NCBI GenBank assembly: GCA_947624165.1
Contig: CANQJC010000018.1
Span: forward strand, 1 to 40,103
DNA from: an uncultured Clostridia bacterium
GTDB taxonomy: Bacteria; Bacillota; Clostridia; UBA1381
Length of the DNA stretch: 40,103 nt
Direction of reading: 5' to 3'
Below, piece after piece: positions 29,601 to 31,573 of this stretch. The notes under the pieces were generated by a model. That model made no database searches. It was not told where the DNA came from and saw only the letters and a list, made by a program, of their open reading frames with translations. A program made the position numbers and the translations under genes. Positions within the stretch are counted from its first letter, which is position 1, and every line of letters begins with the position of its first letter.

Positions 29601-29925
29601 GCCTATCAACAGAATAGATATAACCACGCAGGCGGTCGCGGAAAACACCCCCGCAAGCGTTACGATAGACGGAACGAAAGTTAAACTGTGCGGCGTCGTA
29701 GGCGTTAACGGCAGAAAGATATCCTTCAACCTCAACAATGCCGACGAGGTCGAAAACGTGCATCTCATCGCCGCAAAGTACAGAGATTCCGCGCTCACAA
29801 ATTTGAAGATCCTTAACGCAAAGGTGACCGCCCCGGGCATGTCCGAGGTGGCGACCACATTCGACCCCGATAAGATCTATGTCTGGGACGGTATGGCTCC
29901 GTTAGAGGTCTGGAGCAGAGAATAA
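26605..29925 (+). CDS. Secreted rhamnogalacturonan lyase (polysaccharide lyase family 11) with Ig-like and C-terminal domains
   Basis: The 1106-residue precursor has a signal peptide (1-26, ending VLAA). The PL11 catalytic propeller spans about 30-680: RQMEKIDRGLVAIKSGSTVFLSWR, calcium-binding blades DLDGDGEYEIIIKW, DFNGDGKAEMMCQT and DVDNDGKDEFITG, GDWREELIYPT, and MHDPVYRSGVAAEQTAYNQPPHVGFYM near its end. Two bacterial Ig-like domains of the Big_3 type follow (about 685-760 and 760-838), then a beta-rich C-terminal domain of about 260 residues that may bind carbohydrate. PL11 enzymes cut the rhamnose-galacturonate backbone of pectin by beta-elimination. GAGGAGA precedes ATG 26605. It is a single-gene unit with promoter and terminator; no cell-wall anchor is seen, so it may be released. 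Confidence 0.95.
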   Translation: MKRIIPVVMSAALILSFSLMYTTVLAADETVPITYNYNLVGEMYKSDDNQTRQMEKIDRGLVAIKSGSTVFLSWRLFDSEDNIYGSAGSDVKFNVYRDGEKVNDEPLDKTNYTDETIGTAYQVAPVVDGIEGEKCAEASVSSTSYIEIPLQRPEQETITAPNGETVGTFPFGVADCSTGDLDGDGEYEIIIKWTSSEHDVGSPGDGIQSLSGTVRFAAYKLNGKKLWENDINLGKNVYSSAHTVQFLVYDFNGDGKAEMMCQTSLGSKDASDAYVSHSAKTDEEIAAYTDEDNENAEFRGTWGPITKGDEFLTVFEGETGKAIDTINFPTARVGDGSSFGDTSGNRSNRFVASVAYLDGEKPYAVYLRGYYFGRNGNQRTGISGTSFDGEKLSVDYQFDTLKNQPGYYDGAGIYVGNGNHNCTVADVDNDGKDEFITGALCMEVNDDNEFRPRWCTFMEHGDALHIGDYDPTIPGLEFFTIHEDGGPNTMSGTEVPIDFGMTVINSNTGEIIKHWTSGGDNGRGIMANIGAGGFYQVKSANAGCYQSNGGSNFTAGDFGMSQNFRVFWDGDLFDELLDGTGVTDWNGRGMSSIFDASRSGCTKVNGTKSTPSLQADILGDWREELIYPTTGMDKLRVFITTTPTDYKIKTLMHDPVYRSGVAAEQTAYNQPPHVGFYMSESMFRTDITSLTITHGPNRERYVKNEQFDSDGLIVTANYADGEPEEVKGYILSGFDSETVGDKTITVEYKGKTATFVVKVLDVNKIELTSPPTKTEYIQGERLDLTGMVVTATYSDGLSAVVDNDLCETSGFITSKVGEQTVTVSYAGQSAEFKVNVKEATLSDVNGTYENSKTNVATTSRSIGSFTGAYVFEHTFKINSMPAAGNINNKSTISGFTLRFMSDDTETVKGGTGSGWTLVPSSNRTTADVYWKSSENQAAKISQTQLKLGETYTVRYAFTDVATGAGARVSMYVYDSSNKAVVTAKNLELRNFTFDAQKAAPINRIDITTQAVAENTPASVTIDGTKVKLCGVVGVNGRKISFNLNNADEVENVHLIAAKYRDSALTNLKILNAKVTAPGMSEVATTFDPDKIYVWDGMAPLEVWSRE

Positions 29926-29973
29926 ATAAACCAAAAGCACGTCCATGGACTGTGTTGGATTGGATTTTCGAGG

Positions 29974-30002
29974 AACGACGCGGCTTAAGCCGCGTCGTTT
30001 TT
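29974..30002 (+). terminator. Terminator of the rhamnogalacturonan lyase gene
   Basis: An 11-bp GC-rich stem (29974-29984 with 29989-29999), TTAA loop and TTTTT tail, 48 bases after the stop. Confidence 0.92.
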
Positions 30003-30041
30003 CACTCTCTATATATGTTCCCGTATTTTTCATTCCCATAC

Positions 30042-30071
30042 AAAAACCGCCTTGATTTCTCAAAGCGGTTT
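30042..30071 (-). terminator. Intrinsic terminator of the small RNA
   Basis: A 12-bp stem (30060-30071 with 30044-30055, one U-G pair), GAAA loop and a TTTTT end on the minus strand. Confidence 0.88.
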
Positions 30072-30192
30072 CATAAAATTGCTGCTTGGCAGGCGTACCC
30101 CTCTCCTGCATCTCTCAGAACTTGCGTTCCTGTCGTTACCATCGGCGTGTGGTCGGTACGAAATTTACCACCTCAAACAGCCTTTTTATTGT
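30042..30192 (-). ncRNA. Free-standing structured small RNA, family not recognised
   Basis: A consensus promoter, about 150 bases of GC-rich non-coding sequence and a T-run terminator define an independent transcript on the minus strand. In the RNA, GCUGUUUG (30181-30174) pairs with CAAGCAGC (30088-30081) as a closing stem. Inside, GUGGU/ACCAC (30171-30167, 30053 + 100 = 30153-30149), a GAAC-GCAA-GUUC hairpin with a GNRA loop (30129-30118) and GCAGG/CCUGC (30109-30105, 30093-30089) can form. CGUACC (30160-30155) and GGUACG (30099-30094) are fully complementary, giving either a kissing interaction of two loops or an alternative inner helix. The terminator has a GAAA tetraloop. I found no signature of SRP RNA, 6S, tmRNA, RNase P or a known riboswitch, and no ORF follows, so a riboswitch is unlikely. 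The exact 5' end is inferred from the -10 box. Confidence 0.75.
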
Positions 30193-30198
30193 ATATTC

Positions 30199-30227
30199 AT
30201 TATACCATAACTATTCTCTTTTGTAAA
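30199..30227 (-). promoter_or_regulatory. Consensus promoter of the small RNA
   Basis: Minus strand: TTTACA (30227-30222), 17-base spacer, perfect TATAAT (30204-30199). The -35 box lies inside the last codons of the PBECR-like gene, so the RNA is expressed independently but physically tied to that gene. Confidence 0.85.
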
Positions 30228-30588
30228 GAATTTTTTTGTTTCTTATACATCTGCGCCATTCCTTATCTTTTATTTTAAGAAAAGTAATGATTGAATTTTT
30301 ATAATCTTTTATATCTTGTGAGGTCTTTATGCGCAAAATCAGTTGAAAATTCTTTCCTCCTTCCTCAATCCGCTTTAGAACAAAGGCGGTATTGGGTTTG
30401 TTAGCCTCAAGGATATAATCGGGCTCTGCCAAAATTTGTGGTATATATTTACCAAATCTTTCATAGTCGGTCGGGTGTTTCTCACAAATATGGGATATTT
30501 GATTTTCTGTGATTATAACCTCGTCTGTAGCTATATCTTCCGTAACACACTTATATATTTCTCTGTCAATTTTTCCAACATGATTCAC
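30211..30588 (-). CDS. PBECR-type (phage barnase-EndoU-colicin E5/D-RelE-like) nuclease-domain protein
   Basis: The 125-residue protein reads KIDREIYKCVTEDIATDEVIITENQISHICEKHPTDYERFGKYIPQILAEPDYIL, then NTAFVLKRIEEGGKNFQLILRIKTS and YKNSIITFLKIKDKEWRRCIRNKKILYKRE. This matches the PBECR2/3-like domain I know from clostridial phage and mobile-element proteins, predicted to be an RNase-like fold with conserved His, Glu/Arg and C-terminal basic residues. Here it stands alone rather than fused to a phage polyvalent protein. Translation seems to start at GTG 30588 with a weak ribosome binding site. GC content is about one third, clearly below the neighbours, suggesting transfer. It has a near-perfect promoter, and the small RNA gene begins at its 3' end. 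Nuclease activity is predicted only. Confidence 0.8.
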   Translation of the reverse strand: MNHVGKIDREIYKCVTEDIATDEVIITENQISHICEKHPTDYERFGKYIPQILAEPDYILEANKPNTAFVLKRIEEGGKNFQLILRIKTSQDIKDYKNSIITFLKIKDKEWRRCIRNKKILYKRE

Positions 30589-30622
30589 ATCGCTTACCGC
30601 CGTTTCGACTTTTTTTGATTTT

Positions 30623-30650
30623 ATTATACCACTTCCGCACGAATTGTCAA
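30623..30650 (-). promoter_or_regulatory. Consensus promoter of the PBECR-like gene
   Basis: Minus strand: perfect TTGACA (30650-30645), 16-base spacer, perfect TATAAT (30628-30623). The leader is about 28 bases with little similarity to a Shine-Dalgarno sequence, so strong transcription is combined with weak translation start. Confidence 0.85.
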
Positions 30651-30725
30651 CGTTTTTCTCGTCCGTACCTCTTTGACGTGCGTTTCCATAGCCGCTTTTT
30701 GTTCCGGCTTAAATTTCTTCACGCA

Positions 30726-30759
30726 AAAATACCCGCCCATATATAAGGACGGGTATTTT
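30726..30759 (-). terminator. Terminator of the SDR dehydrogenase gene
   Basis: Arms 30726-30737 and 30747-30759 pair with one bulged A. T tracts on both strands allow bidirectional function. Confidence 0.85.
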
Positions 30760-30772
30760 ATTTAAGTTCAAA

Positions 30773-31573
30773 TTACGGCTGTTTGCCGATATAAGCAAGT
30801 ATACCGCCGTCTACGTAAAGCACGTGACCGTTTACGGCGTTCGATGCGTCGGACGCAAGGAATACCGCGGGACCCGTAAGCTCCTCAGCCTGAAGCCATC
30901 TGCCTGCGGGAGTTCTTCCGCAAATGAACTGGTCGAATGGATGTCTTGAGCCGTCCGGCTGCTTCTCACGAAGCGGCGCGGTCTGCGGCGTAGCTATATA
31001 ACCGGGGCCTATGCCGTTGCACTGGATATTGTACGCGCCGTACTCCGCGCAGATGTTTCTCGTAAGCATCTTGAGACCGCCCTTTGCGGCAGCATATGCC
31101 GAAACAGTCTCGCGTCCAAGCTCCGACATCATCGAGCAGATGTTTATTATCTTGCCGTGACCCTTCTTTATCATCGACGGAATTACCGCCTTCGCAACGA
31201 TGAACGGAGCGTTCAGGTCAACGTCGATAACAGCTCTGAATTCAGCCGCGGTCATGTCGCACATCGGGATCCTCTTAATTATACCCGCGTTGTTAACAAG
31301 AATGTCGATAACGCCGATCTCGGCTTCGATCTTCTTGACCATGTCCTGTACCATTTCCTCGTTGGTAACGTCGCATACATAACCCTTTGCGTCGATACCG
31401 TCCGCTTGATATGAAGCCAAGCCCTTGTCAACGAACTCCTGCTTGATATCGCAGAAAACGATTTTGGCACCCGACTTCGCGTATGCCGAAGCGATAGCGT
31501 AGCCGATACCGTAGCTCGCGCCGGTTACGAGCGCGACTTTGCCTTCAAGGCTGAAGTTTAAGTAATCACTCAT
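30773..31573 (-). CDS. idnO: Short-chain dehydrogenase, gluconate 5-dehydrogenase (IdnO) type
   Basis: The 266-residue classical SDR has the cofactor motif TGASYGIG (17-24), D-x-x at the second strand (FCDIKQ, favouring NAD), NNAG (94-97) and the catalytic Ser147, Tyr160 and Lys164 (SAYAAAKGG). The closest pattern I know is gluconate 5-dehydrogenase: FSLEGKVALVTGASYGIG, GIIKRIPMCDMTAAEFRAVIDVDLNAPFIVAKAV, IATPQTAPLRE and the C-terminal NGHVLYVDGGILAYIGKQP. These enzymes interconvert gluconate and 5-ketogluconate; related ones act on pectin-derived keto-uronates, which would suit the PL11 lyase nearby. AAGGAGG lies about 10 bases before ATG. It is transcribed alone. Confidence 0.88.
   Translation of the reverse strand: MSDYLNFSLEGKVALVTGASYGIGYAIASAYAKSGAKIVFCDIKQEFVDKGLASYQADGIDAKGYVCDVTNEEMVQDMVKKIEAEIGVIDILVNNAGIIKRIPMCDMTAAEFRAVIDVDLNAPFIVAKAVIPSMIKKGHGKIINICSMMSELGRETVSAYAAAKGGLKMLTRNICAEYGAYNIQCNGIGPGYIATPQTAPLREKQPDGSRHPFDQFICGRTPAGRWLQAEELTGPAVFLASDASNAVNGHVLYVDGGILAYIGKQP

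Follow-up and report, generated by a model that had tools for sequence, protein, structure and literature searches.

The window analysed here, a stretch of 40,103 nucleotides (nt) from an uncultured Clostridia bacterium (contig CANQJC010000018.1), carries on its minus strand a two-gene cassette that consists of a gene for a predicted nuclease of the PBECR2 family and, directly after it, a gene for a small structured RNA of the skipping-rope family (Rfam identifier RF02924). We propose, with a probability of roughly three in four, that this cassette is a mobile toxin-antitoxin, or immunity, module in which the antitoxin is the RNA. The RNA and the nuclease are so tightly paired among their relatives that the RNA suggests itself as the antidote of the predicted toxin. 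The RNA family is known, whereas a PBECR nuclease and a skipping-rope RNA as a system are undescribed in the searchable literature. A search by titles and the beginnings of abstracts, which did not cover most subscription papers or bioRxiv, found no publication that pairs the two, and no function for the family was found in the accessible parts of the searched literature.

The RNA and the nuclease gene

The family to which the RNA of the window belongs is said to have been described in a paper of Weinberg in 2017. The match to the RF02924 model covers positions 1-80 of 80 and scores 50.5 bits against a cut-off of 36.7, which rules out a novel RNA family. An earlier note, based on the letters of the window, had taken the RNA for a free-standing molecule of unrecognised family and had named a search of the Rfam covariance models as a check; that search removed the novelty. 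The note also overlooked that a gene with a promoter of its own precedes the RNA and forms a cassette with it, so that the RNA is free-standing in having its own promoter and terminator, but not in its company, since it is the constant partner of the nuclease gene directly upstream. The minus-strand coordinates and parts that the note gave for 30042..30227 are correct. As it had observed, no open reading frame (ORF) follows the RNA; the next gene downstream is a convergent rhamnogalacturonan lyase gene that ends at 29925. A riboswitch or leader is ruled out by this absence of a same-strand gene before the lyase. The subtype of the window differs from the family in having an insertion in the loop of the first hairpin and extra bases in the second domain.

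The 151-nt RNA stretch folds with a predicted energy of -51.6 kcal/mol, compared with -34.9 ± 3.6 kcal/mol for shuffled sequences (z -4.6; none of 200 shuffles as good). The fold recovers the long-range closing stem and the GNRA hairpin (GCAA loop) proposed earlier, along with the terminator and its GAAA loop, the stem of which has 13 base pairs rather than the 12 claimed. Compensatory changes in homologues, the second check named in the note, are also present. Among 56 window-type RNAs, hand-picked for diversity from an alignment of 99, 99.2% of cells pair and 17 of 24 pairs show changes on both sides; none of 500 shuffles attains the observed value on any of five measures, and pairing falls to 31-45% when the columns are slid by one to three. 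The covariation extends to a pseudoknot absent from the note's description (5'-CGUNNN with N'N'N'ACG), which is 97% paired in these 56 RNAs, with four of six pairs compensated. The full alignment of 99 shows similar covariation, except that the GCAA hairpin is poorly conserved in its inner pairs. One result speaks against a conserved pseudoknot: in an alignment of 28 RNAs of mixed subtypes, only 46% of the cells in the pseudoknot columns and 60% of those in the first hairpin are paired. We think that this low pairing reflects misregister between the subtypes, and the support for the pseudoknot is thus confined to the window subtype. A figure legend of the Rfam 14 paper depicts a pseudoknot for the family, and a single sentence of the Phirbo paper on phage noncoding RNAs concerns skipping-rope RNA, as far as the available parts of these papers go.

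The RNA promoter has the TTTACA-17-TATAAT form reported earlier and agrees with the consensus at 11 of 12 bases. A consensus scan returned three promoter-like sites against a shuffle mean of 2.4, so the scan alone is weak evidence for it; the output of the scan contained no RNA terminator, which comes from the fold. The relatives say more. Among 98 distinct RNAs, 94 have a promoter with at least 10 of 12 consensus bases within 62 nt upstream (73 of 1960 mononucleotide shuffles do), with the -10 box ending 16-22 nt ahead of the RNA core in 92, and 75 are followed by a terminator, as are 17 of 490 shuffles. Fold statistics and promoter match uphold a small structured RNA that has both a promoter and a terminator of its own.

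The protein encoded upstream matches PBECR2 (PF18810) with 51.2 bits against a cut-off of 27.1, and barely passes the PBECR3 profile as well (30.3 against 30). Its ratio of nonsynonymous to synonymous substitution rates (dN/dS) of 0.06-0.13 relative to five near relatives (L115-L119) indicates purifying selection on the protein. PBECR domains are predicted RNases in polyvalent proteins, according to the available part of the original description (Iyer 2017, PMC5512222). A Foldseek comparison against the PDB gave no match below E 0.3, and the best fold neighbours include RNase toxins. His33, in a helix, and Ser99, in a strand, are invariant in all 13 window-type PBECR2 sequences compared, but not across 13 sequences of mixed subtypes. 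PADLOC found no match for the protein, with no ToxN, CptN or TenpN up to E 0.01; these families are likewise missing among its Pfam matches up to E 0.1, and the 125-residue protein has no match to the MuF domain. The positions of all parts are collected in Table 1.

Table 1. Parts of the cassette in the window, and lone RNA copies in phages
Feature	Positions	Strand	Evidence or remark
Whole cassette: promoter, nuclease, promoter, RNA, terminator	30042..30650	minus	sole stretch common to L115, L116, L118; L285 is an empty site
PBECR2 nuclease promoter TTGACA-16-TATAAT	30623..30650	minus	12/12 consensus bases; homology with relatives starts at the -35 box
PBECR2 nuclease gene, 125 aa, GTG start	30211..30588	minus	PF18810, 51.2 bits; dN/dS 0.06-0.13
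RNA promoter TTTACA-17-TATAAT	30199..30227	minus	11/12 consensus bases; -35 box inside the end of the nuclease gene
Skipping-rope RNA core	30081..30181	minus	RF02924, 50.5 bits
Pseudoknot 5' strand CGUACC	30155..30160	minus	partner 30094-30099; covariation
Internal hairpin of the RNA, GCAA loop	30117..30130	minus	predicted fold; inner pairs poorly conserved in relatives
Pseudoknot 3' strand GGUACG	30094..30099	minus	partner 30155-30160; covariation
Intrinsic terminator, GAAA loop	30043..30072	minus	predicted fold, 13-bp stem
Lone skipping-rope RNA of phiL47 and relatives	L085 1729-1807; L255 2501-2579		right after tRNA-Asp in a tRNA/tmRNA array

Pairing of the RNA with PBECR nucleases

A search of 398 genomes spread over the phylum with RF02924 (E <= 0.001) found 32 RNAs, including that of the window, in 28 genomes. 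With an iterated profile seeded by the window protein, an intact or broken PBECR homologue was detected within 5 kb of 18 of these RNAs: 15 times directly upstream on the same strand, twice in convergent orientation (L034, L058) and once about 1.9 kb upstream (L040), where a 476-residue ORF, transposase-like by eye, lies between gene and RNA. Four RNAs (L032, L041, L047, L058) stand beside broken or shortened copies of the gene. The other 14 have no PBECR gene within 5 kb, the upstream side being cut by the contig end in two of them (L048, L050). No common alternative partner was seen beside such orphan RNAs; two of them (L037, L044) lie next to a HEPN/nucleotidyltransferase pair and a sub-threshold HicA-like ORF.

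In the reverse direction, PF18810 gave 15 matches in 14 of the 398 genomes, and an RNA adjoins 14 of them. This count takes in a convergent locus (G275), the interrupted locus just mentioned (G371, the same as L040) and G337, whose RNA was missed by the stricter filters of the RF02924 search and found by later model searches. The sole match without an RNA (G324) scores below the cut-off (20.7 against 27.1).

The pairing was further examined by fetching loci through the protein only, using an alignment of 13 PBECR2 domains (A3), since an earlier alignment (A2) was too diverse for a locus search, and by detecting RNAs with a covariance model (R1) built from 28 RNAs. A skipping-rope RNA was present in 79 of the best 80 of 128 genomic loci and in all 32 viral loci, that is, in 111 of 112; at the only exception (L175) the contig ends within the gene. 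In 110 of the 112 loci, no more than 60 nt (median 34) separate the start of the RNA from the end of the protein match; at L206 the RNA lies 2.27 kb from PBECR, with an intervening frame of 627 codons that is transposase-like by eye. The Rfam model upheld the RNA in 18 of 20 sampled genomic loci (not L150 and L175) and in 13 of 13 sampled from the viral ones, and the three viral loci matched by the window protein alone all have it. Contigs of Ruminococcus bicirculans or Selenomonas ruminantium are among the genomic carriers of the pair (L123, L172, L177). The figure of 111 of 112 holds for this PBECR2 clade and not for all PBECR, because A3 drew nine of its 13 proteins from contigs first retrieved by an RNA pattern, and near-duplicates leave 98 distinct RNAs among 113 loci, namely the 111 plus L062 and L114, the last from the same contig as L198. 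Two adjacent RNAs follow a single PBECR gene at L142, L145, L156 and L192, and L278 has two without PBECR.

A search with PBECR3 gave 25 matches in 21 of 396 genomes. By model R1, an RNA is present at 18 of these 25 loci, two of which are pieces of one broken gene, and a 19th RNA (G371) lies just outside the fetched locus. The six that remain comprise four domains in frames of 1413-2356 residues and two genes of one genome, G315 (L234 and L247, in frames of 191 and 693 residues). PBECR4 had three matches in 396 genomes, none with a skipping-rope RNA. Searching the RNA-less PBECR3, PBECR4 and G324 loci with filters off gave nothing credible (best 10.3 bits, E 0.61). When the PBECR2 and PBECR3 searches are combined and the four very long frames omitted, an RNA accompanies 19 of the 22 genes that remain, which are of the free or C-terminal type.

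RNA and protein distances are correlated over 13 pairs drawn from both subtypes (r 0.87; 0 of 10000 permutations), and to a much smaller degree within the window subtype (96 pairs; r only 0.21; 2 of 5000 permutations). As judged from these sequence distances, the pairing is old, with a correlation that is strong across the subtypes and weak within that of the window.

Many RNAs stand without a detectable toxin gene, some of them beside decayed ones, while toxins that lack the RNA are rare; because of this asymmetry we regard the pattern as a toxin/antidote signature. If the RNA were an activating cofactor or guide of PBECR, the two forming one ribonucleoprotein enzyme, they should pair and co-diverge in the same way, and a precedent exists in another orphan RNA family, RAGATH-18, which proved to serve RNA-guided nucleases (PMC11061315, as far as its available text goes). 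The many RNAs without a detectable protein gene, some beside broken copies, argue against such a role, and a variable guide-like segment is not evident, the variable bases being mostly internal covarying pairs. Moreover, BECR-fold toxins are known to act without an RNA cofactor. We therefore consider a cofactor or guide improbable, though it is the strongest of the rivals to an antitoxin RNA.

Movement of the cassette and its carriers

The window unit is an AT-rich cassette of about 609 bp that moves as one piece. In blastn comparisons with the 40-kb window, three relatives (L115, L116 and L118; 96, 94 and 88% identical) share with it only the stretch of about 610 bp from the -35 box of the toxin promoter to the terminator, with no homology in the flanking sequence present for them. 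The cassette has a GC content of 36%, against 51 and 47% alongside. In L285, a locus of the same genus, about 65 bp separate the stop codon of the lyase gene from that of the SDR gene on the other flank, a distance that measures 847 bp in the window, and L285 is hence taken as an empty site; the 65 bp were counted from the sequence, the lyase DNA is only 70% identical, and some of the 170 bp that remain may have other origins. Congeners, G405 and G407 among them, have the cassette on one contig and the flanking SDR gene on another. Among 61 relatives, 16 (the genome of the window included) carry the RNA, with up to five copies per genome; a PBECR gene stands beside it at 10 of these 19 loci and at none of the other nine, two of which (L275, L281) have little upstream sequence or none. 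Tandem arrays also occur, in which complete PBECR/RNA cassettes carry diverged toxins (L117 1-1323; L119 2278-3557). Between the lyase gene and the cassette of the window lies a perfect 26-bp palindrome (29974-29999), which is probably a two-way terminator.

Two RNA patterns retrieved 35 contigs from IMG/VR, 16 with the window subtype, of which L102 was dropped for lack of an RNA by the covariance model, and 19 with the other subtype. In the window subtype, 12 of 15 RNAs directly follow a frame that ends in PBECR, its stop codon 28-51 nt before the UUGAGG of the RNA; no PBECR was found at L100, L106 and L109, of which the last extends only about 300 nt upstream. In the other subtype, PBECR is nearby in just three of 19 contigs (L079 and, convergently, L087 and L092). 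Six long relatives were scanned, five from viral contigs and one bacterial (L042); all have a C-terminal PBECR2 and five have a Phage_Mu_F domain. Counted from stop to stop, 67 of 112 PBECR genes lie in frames of fewer than 190 codons; the other 45 have longer frames, of at least 348 codons in 32 cases. One MuF protein (L104 5124-7295) has a sub-threshold zincin-type metallopeptidase domain between MuF and PBECR2. In a phage collection, the window protein as query found one unannotated phage record, and a window-type phage RNA found no match.

Five Bacillus or Planococcus plasmid records were retrieved both by the window protein and by an RNA of the other subtype, and in all five RNA and protein are on opposite strands; the RNA therefore need not lie in cis. 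On the two plasmids inspected, pTA1060 and a Planococcus plasmid, the RNA is confirmed by Rfam and convergent with the gene, the protein scores best as PBECR3, and a protein of about 300 residues with a sub-threshold HTH_36 domain precedes the PBECR3 gene (L254 2996-3913; L296 562-1464). The skipping-rope RNA of pTA1060 has a Bacillus-plasmid RNA (RF01691; L254 2329-2384) about 93 nt away, encoded on the other strand.

A lone skipping-rope RNA occurs in 17 records of Lactococcus phages, which are 12 phages by name and which we take to be virulent phages of the 949 type. In three of four inspected contigs it begins 2-3 nt past tRNA-Asp, within an array that includes a tmRNA; the phiL47 copy is unannotated.

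The predominant arrangement, with the RNA just downstream on the same strand, would also fit an RNA that belongs to the PBECR mRNA as an element of its 3' end, or an RNA and a nuclease that are unrelated cargo of shared mobile elements. Such readings are contradicted by the convergent pairs (L034, L058, L087, L092 and the five plasmid records), by the promoter that 94 of 98 distinct RNAs have of their own, and by a pairing that is constant over phage, plasmid and chromosomal loci; we hold them to be very unlikely.

Proposed function and comparison with known systems

We hypothesize that PBECR2 acts as a RelE/colicin-like RNase toxin, with RNA as its presumed target, and that the skipping-rope RNA, transcribed from its own strong promoter and folded into a compact pseudoknotted body, would neutralise it in trans. 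As a terminated small RNA under its own promoter, it could alternatively serve in regulation, type I-like or general, by base-pairing with the mRNA of the toxin or with others. However, duplex energies with the start region of the cognate gene (-29.6 kcal/mol) and of non-cognate genes (-29.4 kcal/mol) are about equal over 45 loci, so that an antisense RNA to the toxin mRNA leaves no signal; the translation start is distant in the 32 of 112 genes with frames of at least 348 codons; and the end of the gene that the RNA faces in convergent pairs is the 3' end. Base-pairing thus seems quite unlikely, and the convergent pairs, the long fusions and the missing preference for cognate duplexes together suggest that the RNA acts on the protein, probably by binding. 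Binding that covers the active or substrate site would be the most likely route by which the antitoxin RNA neutralises the toxin.

In phages, the same toxin domain forms the C-terminus of MuF head proteins, which are thought to be injected along with the DNA; behind such a toxin the RNA occupies the place expected of an immunity gene and would protect the producer or lysogen, while orphan RNAs would guard against incoming or unlinked toxins. A broader proposal, which we judge evenly poised between right and wrong, sees skipping-rope RNAs as a new class of antitoxin or immunity factor, made of RNA, that pairs with BECR-type RNases in mobile cassettes, in plasmid modules and behind virion-delivered MuF toxins, with the lone copies, including those in the tRNA/tmRNA arrays of Lactococcus phages, acting as decoys. 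Either way, a concrete and testable function is offered for an RNA family for which the searched literature gave none, and attention is drawn to phages that may carry an antidote as counter-defence.

Among known systems, those of type III (ToxIN, CptIN, TenpIN) are similar in combining a predicted RNase toxin with a pseudoknotted small RNA and in occurring on plasmids, phages and chromosomes, and by analogy the PBECR/skipping-rope system may work like them. It departs from type III in three defining features and is therefore not filed as one. The type III definition, in the available passages of PMC5086642, places the RNA gene upstream of the toxin under one promoter with a terminator between the two, whereas here the RNA comes after the toxin or is convergent and has its own promoter. 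The type III antitoxin RNA consists of tandem repeats that the toxin cuts, whereas the RNA of the window is a single unit, with no direct repeats in 29900-30800, and two neighbouring copies are found in only four of the 80 genomic loci, those listed above. Finally, the window protein lacks a ToxN-type match in Pfam and PADLOC, a negative that involved no profile-profile comparison. Type I systems differ in that no preference for complementarity between the RNA and the mRNA of its cognate toxin was found over the 45 loci.

The PBECR domains of polyvalent proteins belong to the same domain family of predicted RNases, as far as the available text of Iyer 2017 (PMC5512222) goes, but the four PBECR3 domains in very long frames and the three PBECR4 genes are without the RNA. 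The pseudo-ToxI of phage PhiTE (PMC3475682, available part) is likewise an antitoxin-type RNA in a phage without a toxin gene, and the lone RNA of the Lactococcus phages recalls it, although a toxin-countering role of the latter is only a suggestion. The MuF polymorphic toxins of temperate phages, which have been argued, in the available part of Jamet 2017 (PMC5576092), to need immunity genes just downstream, are matched by five of the six long relatives scanned, which are MuF proteins with PBECR2 at the C-terminus. The PBECR2 loci differ in having an RNA instead of such a gene, and the window copy in being free-standing without MuF. If our proposal is true, the RNA is an unsuspected kind of immunity factor for toxins carried in phage heads.
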